This document shows, one piece after another, positions 3,932 to 16,850 of a stretch of 64,000 bases of DNA. The notes below the pieces were generated by a model. That model had not been told where the DNA came from and did no database searches. It saw only the letters and a program-made list of their open reading frames with translations. This stretch comes from Candidatus Tectomicrobia bacterium. Lineage in GTDB: Bacteria; UBA8248. The position numbers were made by a program, and so were the translations under genes. Position 1 is the first letter of the stretch; each line of letters starts with the position of its first letter. The DNA lies in NCBI GenBank assembly GCA_016192135.1, contig JACPUR010000003.1, forward strand, positions 1 to 64,000. The letters run 5' to 3'.

Positions 3932-5143
3932 GTGAATTTGCAGGCCAAGCAGGTGGCGGTGACGGTGCTCAGCCTTTTCTTCCTGGGCTCGCTGCTCATC
4001 GTGGGGTACATCGAGAGCGAGCGCTTCATCCCCGAGAAGCGGCCGAAGCCGGTCGTCACGAAGAACAACCTGGGCTGCATGAACTGCCACGCCGACAAGT
4101 CCCCGGCCGTGGTCGCCCAGTGGAAGGAGAGCCGCCACGCCGCCCTCGGCGTCGGCTGCATGGACTGCCACGAGGCCAAGAAGGGGGACCCCGACGCCTG
4201 GGAGCACGAGGAGGCGCTCGTCGCCATCATCCCCACCCCCAAGGACTGCGCCCGCTGCCATGAGAAGCAGGCCGAGGAGTTCGGCCGGAGCGCCCACGCC
4301 CGCGCCGCCGAGAACGTCCCCCCCCTCGGCAGCTTCCGCGGGGAGGCGGTGGCCGGGGGCCTCGCCGAGGCGATCGCCGGGTGCCAGAAGTGCCACGGCA
4401 ACGAGGTGAAGGTCCGCCAGGGCGGGACTCTCGATCCCGCCACCTGGCCCAACACGGGGGTGGGCCGGACCAACCCCGACGGGAGCAAGGGCTCGTGCTC
4501 GGTCTGCCACACCCGCCACCAGTTCGCCTCCTCCCAGGCCCGCCGGCCCGAGAGCTGCGGCAAGTGCCACCTCGCCCCCGAGCATCCGCAGATCGAGACC
4601 TACGCGGAGTCGAAGCACGGGCTCCTCGTCCAGTCCCGCATCGGCGAGATGAACCTCACCAGCCTCGAGTGGATCGCGGGGAAGAACTACAACGCCGCCC
4701 CCACCTGCGCCACCTGCCACATGAGCGCGACCAAGAGCCTCCTCCTCACCCACGACGTGGGGGAGCGGGTGGCCCGGGTCCTCTCCCCCGCCGCCTCCAA
4801 GACGCGCGAGGACGCGGAGCGAAAGCGCAAGAACATGCTCAGCGCCTGCAACGCCTGCCACGGGCCCGAGTACACGAAGGCCTACTTCGCGCAGTCCGAC
4901 AAGGTCCTCGACGAGTACAACCTGAAATTCGCAGCCCCGGCCGAGGCCATCATGGAGGCGCTCAGGGCCGAGGGGAGGCTCACCCCCGACCCCTTCGACG
5001 AGAAGATCGAGTGGGTCTACTTCGGGCTCTGGCACCAGGAGGGCCGCCGCCCCGGGGAGGTCGCCCGCATCTTCAGGTACGAGTTCCTCCCCGAGGCCGA
5101 GCGGCTCTCCCCGGGCATCGCGGCGCGCTTCGCGAGGAACTAG
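3932..5143 (+). CDS. Membrane-anchored octahaem cytochrome c (hydroxylamine-oxidoreductase-like)
   Basis: A 403-residue protein with one N-terminal membrane segment (about 7-27) and eight CxxCH haem sites: CMNCH, CMDCH, CARCH, CQKCH, CSVCH, CGKCH, CATCH, CNACH. The spacing and the haem-rich first 320 residues followed by a haem-free tail resemble octahaem cytochromes of the HAO family and relatives. GTG start at 3932, preceded by GGAGGG at a good distance. Third gene of the Rieske/cytochrome b operon, so it probably accepts electrons from that complex and passes them outward. Whether it is catalytic (nitrogen or sulfur compounds) or only an electron carrier cannot be decided here; I could not identify a P460-type cross-linking tyrosine. 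Confidence 0.85.
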   Translation: MNLQAKQVAVTVLSLFFLGSLLIVGYIESERFIPEKRPKPVVTKNNLGCMNCHADKSPAVVAQWKESRHAALGVGCMDCHEAKKGDPDAWEHEEALVAIIPTPKDCARCHEKQAEEFGRSAHARAAENVPPLGSFRGEAVAGGLAEAIAGCQKCHGNEVKVRQGGTLDPATWPNTGVGRTNPDGSKGSCSVCHTRHQFASSQARRPESCGKCHLAPEHPQIETYAESKHGLLVQSRIGEMNLTSLEWIAGKNYNAAPTCATCHMSATKSLLLTHDVGERVARVLSPAASKTREDAERKRKNMLSACNACHGPEYTKAYFAQSDKVLDEYNLKFAAPAEAIMEALRAEGRLTPDPFDEKIEWVYFGLWHQEGRRPGEVARIFRYEFLPEAERLSPGIAARFARN

Positions 5144-8376: not shown

Positions 8377-8405
8377 TTGACCCTGGCGGGAGGGCTCCCT
8401 ATACT
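8377..8405 (+). promoter_or_regulatory. Sigma-70 promoter of the dihaem lipoprotein gene
   Basis: TTGACC (8377-8382), exactly 17 bases, TATACT (8400-8405). It lies 56 bases before ATG 8461. Because the promoter covers the earliest in-frame start at 8377, the true start of the gene must be downstream. Confidence 0.7.
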
Positions 8406-8460
8406 CTCTGCCGCACGTTGGCTTTATTCCGGATCCGGGCGTCATAGCATGGGAGTGCAC

Positions 8461-8898
8461 ATGAAGCGCGTGGGACAGGCGGTGGCCGCTCTCTCTCTCG
8501 CCCTGGCGCTGGGCGCCTGCGCGAAGGAACCCATCCAGAAGGCCGTGGCGGGCAGCCTCCTTCCGGCCGAGGAGAACGTGGTGGTGACGAACCACTGCCA
8601 GGGCTGCCACCTGCACGCCAAGTTCAACGCCGAGGCCCACCTCGCCAAGATCCGCGACCTCTACCCGGCGGACAGCCCCCTGCGCGAGAACACCCAGTGC
8701 CTCAAGTGCCACCAGCTCAAGCTGGAGAACATCTTCCGGAACGAGGTCCGCCGCACCGAGTTCCCCCACAAGAACCTCGTCGGTTTGACGGACATCCCCA
8801 AGCCCGCGGCCGTGGTGAAGGCCCCGGACAAGAAAGAGATGCCCAAGACCGAGGCGGAGCAGAACAAGCGGAAGTGGTACTTCTTCTATCTGTTCTGA
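8461..8898 (+). CDS. Dihaem cytochrome c lipoprotein
   Basis: 145 residues from ATG 8461 (ATG 8449 also possible). The signal peptide has a lipobox (ALGAC). Two haem sites follow: CQGCH (about residue 45) and CLKCH (about 81). The C-terminal third is charged and rich in Lys/Glu and ends KWYFFYLF. It is probably a small periplasmic electron carrier tethered to a membrane. It has its own promoter (8377-8405) and terminator (8925-8956). I do not recognise a named family. Confidence 0.85.
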   Translation: MKRVGQAVAALSLALALGACAKEPIQKAVAGSLLPAEENVVVTNHCQGCHLHAKFNAEAHLAKIRDLYPADSPLRENTQCLKCHQLKLENIFRNEVRRTEFPHKNLVGLTDIPKPAAVVKAPDKKEMPKTEAEQNKRKWYFFYLF

Positions 8899-10928: not shown

Positions 10929-12560
10929 CTAGCGCTTCTCCCCGGCCCCCGCGGGGGCGAAGCGGGCCCGGGCGAGCGAGATCAGGTCCTCGTTCGGGTA
11001 GACCTCGAAGCCCTCGATGCGGCGGTCGAGGGCGGCGGCGTTCTCGGCGTGCCAGAGGTTCACGTAGGGGAGGTCCTCCGCCAGGATCCGCTGGACCTCG
11101 TGATAGAGCGGCGCCCGGCGGCCGCGGTCGAGGACGCGCTGGGCCTCCTCCACCAGCCCGTCCACCCGCCGGTTCGAGTACCGCCCCCGGTTCAGGCCCT
11201 CGGGCGGCGCCTGGGCGCTGTGGAAGACGAAGCGGTAGATGTCCGGGTCCGAGATGCCCACCCAGGTCAGGCTGTAGAGCTGGAAGTTCCCGGTGCGGAT
11301 GTCCCCGAAGAAGGTGCCCCACTCGTAGGCGCGCACCTTCACCTCGATGCCCACCCGCGCGAGCTGATCGGCGATGACGCTCGCGGTGCGGCGGCGGATC
11401 TCGCTCTGGGAGGTCTTGAAGACGAGCGCGAAGCGCGGCAGGGGCCCCGGGCCGTCCGGGTCCGGGAAGCCCGCCTCGTCGAGGAGCTGCCGGGCCCGGG
11501 CCGGGTCGTGGTGCAGGGCGGGGAGGCCCGGCGCGTGGGCCCAGTGCCCGCGCGGGAGGAGGCCGTCCGCCTTGCGGGCCAGGCCCTTCAGGATGTGGCG
11601 GATGATGGGATCCCGGTCGATCGCCAGGGCGATGGCGCGGCGGACCTTGGGCTTCGCGAGAATCGGGTCCCGCAGGTTGAAGCCGATGTAGGTGAAGTTC
11701 GTGCCCGGGCGGCTCTGGACCCGCAGGCGCGGATGGGCCTCGAGGCGCGGGAGGAAGTCCGGCGAGAACGTGCTCTGCAGCAGGTGCAGGCCGCCGCTCT
11801 CCAGCTCCAGGATGCGGATGGTCTCCTCCGGGAGGATGCGGAAGATCAGCCGCTCGAATTCGGGCGGCGCGGGGTGCCCCGCGAAGGCGGCGAGCTCGAT
11901 CTTTTCGTCGGGCACGAAGCGGACGAAGCGGAAGGGCCCCGTCCCCACGGGCCGCGATCCGAAGTCCTTGCCCGCCCCCGCCGCGCTCCGGGGCACGATC
12001 CCGACCATGAGCGCCTCGGGGAAGGAGGCCGAGGGCCGCTTCAGGCGAAAGGCCACCTCGCGCGGGGAGGGGGTCTCGATGGCGGCCAGCTCCCGCAGCG
12101 CCGCCGCCTTGGGGGAGCCCATCGCGGGATCGCGGATGGAATCGAAAGTGAACTTCACGTCCGCCGAGGTGAGAGGAGAGCCGTCGTGGAAGCGGATGCC
12201 CTCTTTCAGGCGGAAGCGGTGGACGAGGGGCGAGGCCTCCCACGCCTCCGCCGCGTCCAGGGCGGCGGCGCCCGAGGCGTCGTAGGCGAGGAGCTGGCGA
12301 AAGAGCAGGCGCTGGAGCTGCCAGGAGATGGCGTCCTGGGAGAGGCGCGGGTCGAGGCTGGTGGGGTTGCTGTCCACCCCGACGATGAGGGCCCGGCCGC
12401 CGGCGGGAGCCTCCCCCCCGCCGCAGCCTCCCCCGGCCAGCAAGACGGCCAGCAGAAAGGCCGCCAGAATCGCGGGCGCGGCCCGCCGGGCCGGTTGCCG
12501 GAAGCGCGGGAGCGGCGAGAGGAGCTGGCGTGGCGGAGAAAAGGTCACGGGTCGGGCCAT
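10929..12560 (-). CDS. dppA: Family 5 extracellular solute-binding lipoprotein (peptide/opine type)
   Basis: About 543 residues from ATG 12560. The signal peptide ends in a lipobox (LLAGGGC), giving a lipid-anchored binding protein. The SBP family 5 fold is shown by VGVDSNPTSLDPRLSQD, RLKEGIRFHDGSPLTSADVKFT and ARQLLDEAGFPDPDG. These proteins bind peptides, nickel or opines and deliver them to DppBC. In-frame codons upstream reach a TTG at 12617, but the signal peptide fits ATG 12560 better. First gene of the operon, divergent from the selenoprotein-like gene across about 200 bases. Confidence 0.92.
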   Translation of the reverse strand: MARPVTFSPPRQLLSPLPRFRQPARRAAPAILAAFLLAVLLAGGGCGGGEAPAGGRALIVGVDSNPTSLDPRLSQDAISWQLQRLLFRQLLAYDASGAAALDAAEAWEASPLVHRFRLKEGIRFHDGSPLTSADVKFTFDSIRDPAMGSPKAAALRELAAIETPSPREVAFRLKRPSASFPEALMVGIVPRSAAGAGKDFGSRPVGTGPFRFVRFVPDEKIELAAFAGHPAPPEFERLIFRILPEETIRILELESGGLHLLQSTFSPDFLPRLEAHPRLRVQSRPGTNFTYIGFNLRDPILAKPKVRRAIALAIDRDPIIRHILKGLARKADGLLPRGHWAHAPGLPALHHDPARARQLLDEAGFPDPDGPGPLPRFALVFKTSQSEIRRRTASVIADQLARVGIEVKVRAYEWGTFFGDIRTGNFQLYSLTWVGISDPDIYRFVFHSAQAPPEGLNRGRYSNRRVDGLVEEAQRVLDRGRRAPLYHEVQRILAEDLPYVNLWHAENAAALDRRIEGFEVYPNEDLISLARARFAPAGAGEKR

Positions 12561-12697
12561 TCCGGAGGGCGGAGCATCCCTGTCCGGGACGTTGTCACAG
12601 CGGGGCCGCAGCGTCAACGGCGAGGCCCGCGCGCGCAGGATTGCACGATTTTTGCCGTTAAAATTGCATCAAATTGCCTGGATATCCCCATTAAGGA

Positions 12698-12726
12698 TTG
12701 CAGGGTGCGGATGAGGCGTTTATGAT
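12698..12726 (+). promoter_or_regulatory. Sigma-70 promoter of the peroxiredoxin gene
   Basis: TTGCAG (12698-12703), 17-base spacer, TATGAT (12721-12726). The ATG is 32 bases further on, with GGAGGA at 12743-12748 as ribosome site. Confidence 0.65.
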
Positions 12727-12757
12727 AAATCCCGTGCTTGTCGGAGGAATATCCCGC

Positions 12758-13297
12758 ATGCAGTCGAGGTTCCATGCCTGGAGGGCGATCAGCGGTTTCG
12801 TTCTCGGGCTGATCCTTCTCGCCGCGCCGGCGGTCCAGGCGCCTGCCCAGGAGGCGGCCCGGCTGAAGGAAGGCGAGAAGGCGCCCGTCTTCGAGATCCA
12901 GGGGTTCAGCTCCGAATCCCTGATCGGCAAGAAGCACCTCCTGCTGGTCTTCTACCGGGGCCACTTCTGAGGCCATTGCCAAAGGCAGCTCGTGGAGCTG
13001 CAGGAGCATCTCAAGGCCATCCGGGAGAGAAATACCGAGGTCGTCGCTGTCAGCACGGACGGCGCCTTGGAGATGAACCTCTCGATCCGGGAACTGGGTG
13101 TTCGGTTCCCCCTCATCTCGGATCCGCAGCAAAGGGTGATTCGCCAGTTCGGCGTTCCGCTTCTGAAAGATGGGGTCGCGCGGCCCACGACGGTCCTCAT
13201 CGATCTCAAGGGCATCGTCCGGCTGGTTTACGTGGGAACGGATTTTTCGGATCGGCCGTCCATCCGGGCCATTCTCCAGGCCCTGGCTTGGCTCTGA
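12758..13297 (+). CDS. Secreted peroxiredoxin (AhpC/TSA family) with an in-frame TGA at the peroxidatic position; likely selenoprotein
   Basis: Two in-frame halves are separated only by TGA 12968-12970. Read through, they give 179 residues: signal peptide (about 1-30), KAPVFEIQGF, LLLVFYRGHF, the TGA codon (residue 71), GHC (Cys74) and QRQLVELQEHL, then DLKGIVRLVYVGTDF near the end. In this family the segment reads F-x-R-G-x-x-C-x-x-C-x-x-Q-L; the TGA falls exactly on the peroxidatic Cys. A perfect hairpin at 12985-13001 matches a bacterial SECIS in spacing and loop. The 108 sense codons after the TGA remain open and family-like. The protein would reduce peroxides in the periplasm using selenium. 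Alternative: a pseudogene with one nonsense change, which I consider less likely. Start set by GGAGGA. Confidence 0.82.
12985..13001 (+). promoter_or_regulatory. Candidate bacterial SECIS element
   Basis: GCAGCTC (12985-12991) and GAGCTGC (12995-13001) form a perfect 7-bp stem with loop GTG. The loop begins with G, as bacterial SECIS loops need near their first positions. It starts 21 bases after the TGA at 12968-12970, inside the usual 16-37 base range. SelB would bind it to bring Sec-tRNA to the ribosome. Confidence 0.72.
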
Positions 13298-13320: not shown

Positions 13321-15063
13321 ATGAGCGTGACCCCGGCAGTGAGAATCGGCGCTTCGGCCCTCGCGGGCGCTTTTGCGCTCCTTCTCGGCATGGGAACGGC
13401 CCATCCGGCCCCCGCCCCCAAGGCGGTGCCGAAGAAGGCCGAGCCGGGAATCATGTCGGCCGCGGCCCTGGAGGGGGGCCTCCGGCGGGCGATCGCGCGG
13501 CAGTGCCAGCGCCCCGGCAGCGTGAGCGTGCACGTGCGCTCCCTCACCGCCGGGGAAACCCTCTTCTCCCACGAGGCCCGCGAGAAGCGCATCCCCGCCT
13601 CGAACCTCAAGCTGGCGACGACCGCCGCGGCGCTCGCCCGCCTCGGGCCGGACTACACCTTCCCCACCGACGTTTACTCCGACGGCGCTTTCCGGGGCCC
13701 CCTGCTCGCGGGGAACCTCTACTTCAAGGGATACGGCGACCCGTTCCTCGTGCAGGAGCGGGTGCGGGAGCTGGCCCACGAGCTCCGCGCGCGGGGCCTG
13801 CGGCGGGTCAAGGGCGACCTGGTGGCGGACGAAACCTACTTCGACTCCGAGCGCTTCGGGAAGGGCTGGCACGCCGAGGGCTCGCTCCGCCCCTACCAGG
13901 CGCCGCACGGCGCCCTCTCGTTCAACTTCAACGTCATCTGGGTCATCGTCACGCCGGGGCAGAACCCGGGCGAGCCCGCCCGGGTGCGCCTCGACGCCCC
14001 GGCCGAAACCGTCCGGCTCGAGGGCGGAATCGAGACGGGCCCCCGAAACGGCCGGCCGGCCGTGCAGTTCTCCCGCCACCTGTCGGGCGGCCTCGACCGC
14101 ATCCGGGTGGGCGGCACCGTGCCCGCCGGGGGCTCGCAGGTCACCTATCCCGTCACCATCTCGGACCCCGCGATGTACGCCGCCGGAGCCTTCGCCCTCT
14201 TCCTGAAGGAGGCGGGGATTCTCCTGGAGGGCCGGATCCGGCGCGGCAGCACCCCGGCCGATGCCGAGCTCCTCGCCCGCACGCTCTCCCGCCCCCTGGG
14301 GGAGCTGGTGCGCGACGTGAACAAGATCAGCAACAACTTCATGGCAGAGCAGATCCTCAAGACCCTCGGCGCCGAAGAGCACGGGCTGCCCGGGACGGCG
14401 GAGAAGGGCGTCCGGGCCGTGCGGGATTTCCTGGTGTCGGTGGGGGTCCCGGCGGACGGCTTCGAGCTGGCCGACGGCTCCGGCCTCAGCCGGCTGAACC
14501 GCTTCTCGGCGGAGGGTCTGGTGGCGCTGCTCGAAGGGGTGCACCGCGACTTCCGCCTGCGCCCGGAGTTCGAGGCGTCGCTCGCGGTCGTGGGGGTGGA
14601 CGGCACGGTGCGGAAGAAGCTGCAGCGCACCGGCTCGGTCCGGCGGGTGCGGGTGAAGAGCGGCCTCCTCGACGGGGTGCAGAGCCTGAGCGGCTACGGG
14701 CTGGCCGACAACGGCGAGCTCATCGCCTTCGCCATCATCTCGAACGACAGCGCCTGCCACGCCGAGCGGCTCTTCCGCGACATGATCCTGGACATGACCG
14801 ATCTGGACCGCCCCCTGCCCCCCGCCCTGGCGCATGAGACGGCGGGCGTCCGGCGGACCCTGGCCCTGCCGATGCCCGATCCCCGCCGGAGGGACAGCTG
14901 GCGCGCCCGGCACCGGGCCCGCCTGGGGCCCGCGCCGGAGACGGCCGACACGGCCTCGGTCGGCAAGGTGAAGGCCTCGGCGGGGGAGGAGGTTCCCCCA
15001 GCCGGGCTCAGCATCATCGAGAGCGAGAGCGCGCCGCCGGGGGACCGGGGCGCGCGTCCGTGA
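13321..15063 (+). CDS. dacB: D-alanyl-D-alanine carboxypeptidase/endopeptidase, PBP4 (DacB) family
   Basis: 580 residues. Signal peptide, then a peptidase S13 fold with all three penicillin-binding motifs: SNLK (S94 nucleophile, K97), SNN (S337-N339) and KSG (446-448). It trims peptidoglycan cross-links and stem peptides in the periplasm. The C-terminal about 90 residues after the catalytic fold are Pro/Arg/Ala-rich and probably disordered, an extension beyond the usual family end. Start ATG 13321 is 23 bases after the peroxiredoxin stop. Its end overlaps recJ through GTGA. Confidence 0.93.
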   Translation: MSVTPAVRIGASALAGAFALLLGMGTAHPAPAPKAVPKKAEPGIMSAAALEGGLRRAIARQCQRPGSVSVHVRSLTAGETLFSHEAREKRIPASNLKLATTAAALARLGPDYTFPTDVYSDGAFRGPLLAGNLYFKGYGDPFLVQERVRELAHELRARGLRRVKGDLVADETYFDSERFGKGWHAEGSLRPYQAPHGALSFNFNVIWVIVTPGQNPGEPARVRLDAPAETVRLEGGIETGPRNGRPAVQFSRHLSGGLDRIRVGGTVPAGGSQVTYPVTISDPAMYAAGAFALFLKEAGILLEGRIRRGSTPADAELLARTLSRPLGELVRDVNKISNNFMAEQILKTLGAEEHGLPGTAEKGVRAVRDFLVSVGVPADGFELADGSGLSRLNRFSAEGLVALLEGVHRDFRLRPEFEASLAVVGVDGTVRKKLQRTGSVRRVRVKSGLLDGVQSLSGYGLADNGELIAFAIISNDSACHAERLFRDMILDMTDLDRPLPPALAHETAGVRRTLALPMPDPRRRDSWRARHRARLGPAPETADTASVGKVKASAGEEVPPAGLSIIESESAPPGDRGARP

Positions 15064-16850
15064 CCCCTCAGGCCGCCGGCCCCCGCCCCCTCGCGCGCGG
15101 GGCCGCGGCGCAATCGTGGCGCGTCCGCCCCGCGGATGAGGACGAGGTCCGGCGCCTCGCCGCCGGGCTGGACGCTCCTCCCCTCCTGGCCCGGCTCCTC
15201 TCGCTGCGCGGCATCCGAAGCCCCGAGGACGCCCGGCTCTTCCTCCAAGCCCCGCTCACCGGCCTCCACGATCCCTTCGAGATGCTCGGGATGGACGCGG
15301 CCGCCGCCCACCTGGCCGGGGAGGTGGAGCGGGGCGGCCCCGTCGGGGTGTACGGCGACTACGACGTGGACGGCATCACCTCCACGGCCCTCCTGGTCCG
15401 CTTCTTCCGCTCCCTGGGAATCGAGGCGCCCTACCACGTGCCCCGGCGGCTCGAGGAGGGCTACGGCCTCCACCTCGCCGGCCTCCTGCGGCTGAAGGAG
15501 GCGGGGTGCCGGACGGTGGTGACGGTGGACTGCGGAATCACGGCGGCGGAGGTGGCCGCCGAGGCCAAGGCCCAAGGCCTCCGCCTCATCGTGACCGATC
15601 ACCACCGCCCGCCCGAACGGCTCCCGGAGGCCCTGGCCGTCCTCAACCCCCGGCGGCCCGGCTGTCCCTATCCCTTCAAGGGGCTGACCGGGGCCGGGAT
15701 CGCCTTCAAGCTCGCGGCGGCGGTGCGGCGGCTCCTTCGGGACAAGGGCTTCGCGCGCTCCCTCCCCAACCTCAAGCAGCACCTCGACCTCGTCGCCCTG
15801 GGCACGGTGGCGGACGTGGCGCCCCTCCTGGGGGAGAACCACATCCTCGTGCGGGCGGGGCTCGGGGCGCTCTCCGCGCCGCCCGGCCTCCCGGACCGGC
15901 GCAAGGCGGGGGTCCGCGCCCTCCAGGCGGCGGCGGACCTCAAGGCGGACGAGATCAACGCCGGGCACGTCGGCTTCGTCCTGGGCCCGCGCCTCAACGC
16001 CGCCGGGCGGGTGGGGGACCCCCGGGCGGCGGTGGAGCTCCTCCTGACGGACGATCTGGCCGAGGCGCACGCCGTCGCCGTCCTCCTGGACGACTGGAAC
16101 CACCAGCGCCAGGAGCTCCAGCAGGAGGCGCTGGAGGAGGCGGAGGTCCTCCTCGCGGCGGCCGGGGAGGCGGGCCTCGGCGGGGCCATCGTGCTCGCGA
16201 GCGAGCGCTGGCACTCCGGCGTGATCGGGATCGTGGCCTCCAAGCTGGCGGAGGCCTACCGGCTTCCCGCCGCCCTGATCCGCCTCGACGGCGAGGGGGG
16301 CCGGGGCTCGGTGCGCGGGGTCGAGGGCTTCCACGTCTACCGGGCGCTCGAGGGTTGCGCGGACTGCCTCGTCCAGTTCGGGGGCCACAAGGAGGCGGCG
16401 GGGCTGGCGATCCGGCGCGGGATGGTGGACGCCTTCCGGGCGCGCTTCCAGGAGGCCAGCCGGCTCGCCCTGGGGCCGGAGCGCGGGGAAGAGGTGCTGT
16501 GGCTGGACGCCTCGGTGGGCTTCTCCGACCTGGACCTCGGCCTCATCGAGCGGCTGGAGGAGATGGCCCCCTTCGGGCCCGGGAACCCCCGGCCCCTCCT
16601 CGGGGCGGCGGGCGTTGAGGTGGTGGGCGTCCCGGGCTTCGCCGGCCGCGACCGCGAGCACCTCAAGCTCGCCCTGCGCCACCAGGGGCGGACGATGGAG
16701 GCCATCGGCTTCGGGATGGGCCCCCTCGCGCGGGAGGGCGGCCTCCCCCCCGGCAAGATCGACATCGCCTGCTGCCCCTGCGTCAACCGCTGGCGGGGTT
16801 CCACCAAGCTCCAGCTCGAGCTCAAGGCGATACGGCCGGCGGGGGGATAG
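15060..16850 (+). CDS. recJ: Single-stranded-DNA-specific exonuclease RecJ
   Basis: 596 residues, the usual length. DHH phosphoesterase motifs: GDYDVDGITS (about residue 97), VDCGI (about 158), TDHHRPPE (about 178), and the DHHA1 motif FGGHKEAAG (about 439). RecJ degrades single-stranded DNA 5' to 3' in recombination and mismatch repair, using manganese or magnesium. GTG start at 15060 overlaps the dacB stop. Confidence 0.96.
   Translation: MTPQAAGPRPLARGAAAQSWRVRPADEDEVRRLAAGLDAPPLLARLLSLRGIRSPEDARLFLQAPLTGLHDPFEMLGMDAAAAHLAGEVERGGPVGVYGDYDVDGITSTALLVRFFRSLGIEAPYHVPRRLEEGYGLHLAGLLRLKEAGCRTVVTVDCGITAAEVAAEAKAQGLRLIVTDHHRPPERLPEALAVLNPRRPGCPYPFKGLTGAGIAFKLAAAVRRLLRDKGFARSLPNLKQHLDLVALGTVADVAPLLGENHILVRAGLGALSAPPGLPDRRKAGVRALQAAADLKADEINAGHVGFVLGPRLNAAGRVGDPRAAVELLLTDDLAEAHAVAVLLDDWNHQRQELQQEALEEAEVLLAAAGEAGLGGAIVLASERWHSGVIGIVASKLAEAYRLPAALIRLDGEGGRGSVRGVEGFHVYRALEGCADCLVQFGGHKEAAGLAIRRGMVDAFRARFQEASRLALGPERGEEVLWLDASVGFSDLDLGLIERLEEMAPFGPGNPRPLLGAAGVEVVGVPGFAGRDREHLKLALRHQGRTMEAIGFGMGPLAREGGLPPGKIDIACCPCVNRWRGSTKLQLELKAIRPAGG

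Follow-up and report, generated by a model that had tools for sequence, protein, structure and literature searches.

A predicted selenocysteine in the active site of a peroxiredoxin-fold protein from Candidatus Tectomicrobia

The in-frame TGA at positions 12968-12970 of the 64-kb stretch of Candidatus Tectomicrobia DNA analysed here (the window) very probably encodes selenocysteine (Sec) in the active site of a peroxiredoxin (Prx)-fold protein. This reading, put forward in the original prediction, is backed by tRNA-Sec, selA and selB in the host genome, by the occurrence of the TGA throughout the family, by a covarying SECIS hairpin and by a few homologues that have Cys instead. The gene and its main features are as follows.

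12743-12748, forward strand: Shine-Dalgarno sequence GGAGGA, 9 nt before the ATG at 12758, identified by inspection
12758-13297, forward strand: predicted selenoprotein gene for a probably exported Prx-like UxxC protein of 179 residues, with Sec71 as TGA and a normal TGA stop at 13295-13297
12758-12847, forward strand: signal-peptide-like N-terminus MQSRFHAWRAISGFVLGLILLAAPAVQAPA, with possible cleavage after A28-P29-A30, identified by inspection
12968-12970, forward strand: in-frame TGA, predicted Sec71, the first UxxC residue, in the identical column in 14 family relatives
12977-12979, forward strand: Cys74, the second UxxC residue, aligned to the AhpE peroxidatic Cys
12985-13001, forward strand: putative bacterial SECIS hairpin GCAGCUC-GUG-GAGCUGC, with a 7 bp stem and a 3-nt loop that begins with G, 21 nt downstream of the UGA
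13184-13186, forward strand: Pro143, at the thioredoxin cis-Pro position and at AhpE R116, the catalytic Arg of true peroxiredoxins

The TGA lies in frame in the context FYRGHF-TGA-GHCQRQL and is followed by 108 open sense codons, just as first described. Both halves are indeed family sequence, since a single match to the Pfam AhpC-TSA model (PF00578) crosses the TGA, covering residues 41-156 of the read-through product with a score of 84.8 bits against a cut-off of 26. When all TGAs in the six frames of the 64-kb window were screened for flanks that both stay open for 30 or more codons and both have codon-like GC, exactly one passed, that at 12968 on the forward strand, and its occurrence in frame is therefore not due to chance. 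TGA is also the stop of the selenoprotein gene itself (13295-13297) and of five of the nine clear neighbouring genes.

The TGA occupies one column in all 14 family orthologues that span both sides of it, the host included, and is kept in a contig-edge fragment from a fifteenth family genome (G015, locus L039); those relatives that carry a name are metagenome-assembled genomes of Candidatus Tectomicrobia and Nitrospinota. Chloroflexi, Planctomycetes and Verrucomicrobia have the TGA at the corresponding position too. Outside the family, a scan of GTDB contigs in which the matched motif lies 3' of the Sec codon recovered 29 loci, of which 27 have TGA and two Cys; this contig scan recovered relatives with an alignment as the query but none with the single protein, and a search of plasmids returned distant Prx relatives only. 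The 108 codons downstream of the TGA align with 13 relatives without a single gap, and comparison with two same-genus genomes gives a dN of 0.20 against a dS of 0.56-0.76 for this part (dN/dS about 0.26-0.36). For the upstream part, including the signal peptide, dN/dS is 0.53.

The alignment of Cys homologues that had been proposed as a check did turn up a few with Cys at the Sec site. One, from a member of the Gemmataceae (locus L106, 5181-5234), has TGC there, yet at the SECIS offset it keeps a perfect hairpin, GCAACTGGTTCAGTTGC; this is possibly a recent Sec-to-Cys change that has left a fossil SECIS, or possibly an effect of codon constraint. Three soil Chloroflexi loci (L118, L120 and L126) have a motif without RG, FYEGAGUGACQKQL or FYEGASUGACQRQL, and keep both the UxxC and the hairpin.

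A model of the bacterial SECIS element, in the passages covered of PMC13188914, specifies a loop of 3-9 nt, a stem of 4-16 bp, a G in the first two loop positions, a spacing of 16-37 nt and a minimum free energy of at most -7.5. The hairpin at 12985-13001 falls within every one of these limits, with a loop of 3 (GUG), a stem of 7, a spacing of 21 and an energy of -10.1 kcal/mol. The energy of a single hairpin is nevertheless weak evidence, because, in a window as rich in GC as this, an equally acceptable one is obtained at 25% of the coding positions tested; an Rfam search of the region gave no match. Folding of the single sequence gave no significant result (z about -1.4), and the evidence was therefore sought in conservation and covariation. 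The offset of the hairpin is constant in 39 Sec loci and 92.3% of cells are paired, with a stem mismatch in a minority of relatives. The covariation score for these 39 sequences is 0.269, compared with 0.135 when shuffled; none of 500 shuffles reaches it, and slid versions all score lower. Certain covarying changes leave the amino acid unaltered in each arm of the stem (Gln CAA with Leu TTG, as against CAG with CTG), and protein constraint is therefore no explanation for them. The proposed search for a SECIS near 12960-13010 has thus yielded a hairpin that both fits the bacterial model and covaries.

Does the host possess the machinery to decode such a codon? In its assembly, which comprises 41 contigs and is 96.8% complete, the check that accompanied the original prediction succeeded for selA, selB and tRNA-Sec (selC) and failed for selD. 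The tRNA-Sec scores 74.8 bits against a gathering score of 47, and ARAGORN likewise reports a tRNA-SeC with anticodon TCA; selA (540 bits) and selB (389 bits) are neighbours on one contig, C15. No selD was found above cut-off in the host assembly, the top match, on contig C13, being rejected as ThiL-like: it falls below the cut-off and adjoins a ThiE-like reading frame. Within the family set, selB is above cut-off in 14 of 18 genomes, and selD in nine of the 11 relatives tested, every one with an in-frame TGA. In the same-genus genome G002, selD has as its two neighbours msrA and a protease-like gene, both identified by inspection, and the host assembly lacks these as well. Because these flanking genes are missing too and selD is present in nine of 11 relatives, the failure to find it in the host assembly is more likely due to a gap, with a whole block missing, than to loss of the trait. 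The SelD of relatives is itself a selenoprotein, with the motif AGGUGSK or similar and an in-frame TGA (L052, L053, L055, L057, L060 and L061).

Could the TGA have some other origin? If it were confined to one genome, a pseudogene derived from an ordinary Cys gene, with TGC or TGT mutated to TGA, would look alike. The TGA, however, is common to all family orthologues and to distant phyla, the downstream half is under purifying selection and the SECIS covaries; conservation of the TGA refutes this reading, to which we attach practically no weight. An error of sequencing or assembly at 12968 might be suspected of any single assembly, but is scarcely conceivable here, given that the TGA recurs in genomes that many studies assembled independently. 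The frame would also stay open if UGA had been reassigned across the whole genome, for example to Trp, Cys or Gly. Against this, UGA terminates the selenoprotein gene and five of nine clear neighbours, the window has just one TGA with coding sequence on both sides, and tRNA-Sec, selA and selB are present; the normal UGA stops within the window refute reassignment, and its probability is negligible. Under the favoured reading, of the TGA as a Sec codon, SelB with tRNA-Sec would act together with the hairpin at 12985-13001, the SECIS, to decode the UGA at 12968 as Sec71.

The selenoprotein is probably exported, with the periplasm as its probable location. Export was judged by eye from the N-terminus, and the relatives have similar hydrophobic N-termini in sequence comparison; residues 1-30 have low pLDDT in the AlphaFold model. 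The signal peptide originally proposed for the gene is thus probable, and the ribosome site is visible as GGAGGA at 12743-12748. A promoter of its own, also claimed, was not borne out, as a consensus scan gave no matches; a weak promoter-like sequence, TTGCAG-17-TATGAT, which agrees with the consensus at 8 of 12 positions, lies at 12698-12726. The neighbouring genes, all named by inspection, are listed below.

10929-12617, reverse strand: divergent upstream gene for an ABC-type substrate-binding protein, with permeases beyond
13321-15063, forward strand: D-Ala-D-Ala carboxypeptidase (dacB)-like gene, 23 nt past the selenoprotein stop
15060-16850: recJ-like gene, after the dacB-like gene

The selenoprotein gene and the dacB-like gene are probably co-transcribed. 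The family shares the ABC-type substrate-binding neighbour and the order of the genes surrounding this locus. Elsewhere in the window, reading frames with several CxxCH motifs, at 3932-5143 and 8377-8898, resemble multihaem cytochrome c-type proteins.

In the original prediction the TGA took the place of the peroxidatic Cys of a peroxiredoxin. Alignment with AhpE shows a different register, in which Arg67 falls on Pro, Sec71 on Thr, Cys74 on the peroxidatic Cys and Pro143 on Arg116; the U-x-x-C site itself, formed by Sec71 and Cys74, was correctly identified. The protein thus has neither the PxxxT/SxxC motif of peroxiredoxins, with R67, U71 and C74 at the P, T and C of AhpE, nor their catalytic Arg (AhpE R116), where it has Pro143. 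The thioredoxin cis-Pro position is that occupied by Arg in peroxiredoxins (PMC2757866), and Pro143 is almost invariant in an alignment of 32 homologues. AlphaFold predicts a Prx fold with a pLDDT of 89, the nearest folds being Bcp, Prx and AhpE. From the UxxC register and the location of Pro143 at the catalytic Arg position, the predicted site is a thioredoxin-like UxxC plus cis-Pro arrangement on a Prx fold.

What chemistry might such a site support? Classical Prx catalysis by a genuine Sec protein, with Cys74 as the peroxidatic and Sec71 as the resolving residue, would accord with the Prx fold and with the alignment of Cys74 to the AhpE peroxidatic Cys. It appears improbable, however, in that the protein has Arg67 and Sec71 for the Pro and Thr of the PxxxTxxC motif, and Pro143 for the catalytic Arg. 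On balance the sequence leads us to lean towards chemistry of the thiol:disulfide oxidoreductase type, with Sec71 acting first, over catalysis through Cys74. In this oxidoreductase mechanism Sec71 would be the N-terminal nucleophile of the U-G-H-C site, with Pro143 as the cis-Pro; its selenol would attack a disulfide or peroxide, Cys74 would then form a selenenylsulfide to resolve the intermediate, and the enzyme would be recycled by a thiol-reducing relay in the envelope, of the DsbD/CcdA/TlpA type. Its role could be to reduce disulfides in the envelope or to remove peroxides. A more tentative and rather doubtful proposal is that proteins of this type, as a widespread and mostly Sec-bearing branch of the Prx fold with a thioredoxin-type UxxC and cis-Pro site, act in the envelope as a selenium-dependent disulfide reductase that is neither a peroxiredoxin nor a TlpA/ResA protein.

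Standard gene callers cut the gene at the TGA, and an active-site selenoprotein is therefore lost from view in an environmental lineage about which little is known. The Sec orthologues assembled here are numerous and share a covarying SECIS, which makes them useful for training selenoprotein finders, and the protein is a target for studying the envelope role of UxxC Prx-fold proteins.

How does the protein compare with known systems? Its best phmmer match is the 1-Cys Prx AhpE of Mycobacterium tuberculosis (29% identity), also among the nearest solved folds (TM-score 0.88 by target length). AhpE, however, has TxxC and the catalytic Arg116, in contrast to the UxxC and Pro143 of the Tectomicrobia protein. 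PrxU and other PxxxTxxU peroxiredoxins share the Prx fold and a Sec in the active-site loop, but their Sec is at the peroxidatic position (TxxU), whereas that of the Tectomicrobia protein is predicted three residues earlier (UxxC), and the NCBIfam PrxU score is 31.5 against a cut-off of 270. The top NCBIfam match by score is to SelL-related redox proteins (NF040769), yet at 60.4 bits this is far below the cut-off of 120. Among titles and abstracts searched for Tectomicrobia with selenocysteine, none describes proteins of this type. Prx-like selenoproteins with UxxC and PF00578 are, however, described in passages covered of the Sargasso Sea and GOS surveys and of two reviews (PMC1088965, PMC2398784, PMC9312934 and PMC13188914). 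These Prx-like thiol:disulfide oxidoreductases match the Tectomicrobia protein in their PF00578 domain, in UxxC replacing TxxU, in a UGA-encoded Sec with a bacterial SECIS and in having Cys homologues; the Tectomicrobia protein differs in its putative export signal, and the Tectimicrobiota/Nitrospinota group goes unmentioned in the same passages. It has the AhpC-TSA domain and UxxC (CxxC in homologues) that define the family, of which WP_010940744.1 is a published representative, and by this domain and motif the predicted selenoprotein is a member of it. The kind of selenoprotein is thus known, and what is new is a member in a Tectimicrobiota/Nitrospinota-group lineage; the novelty is therefore modest.
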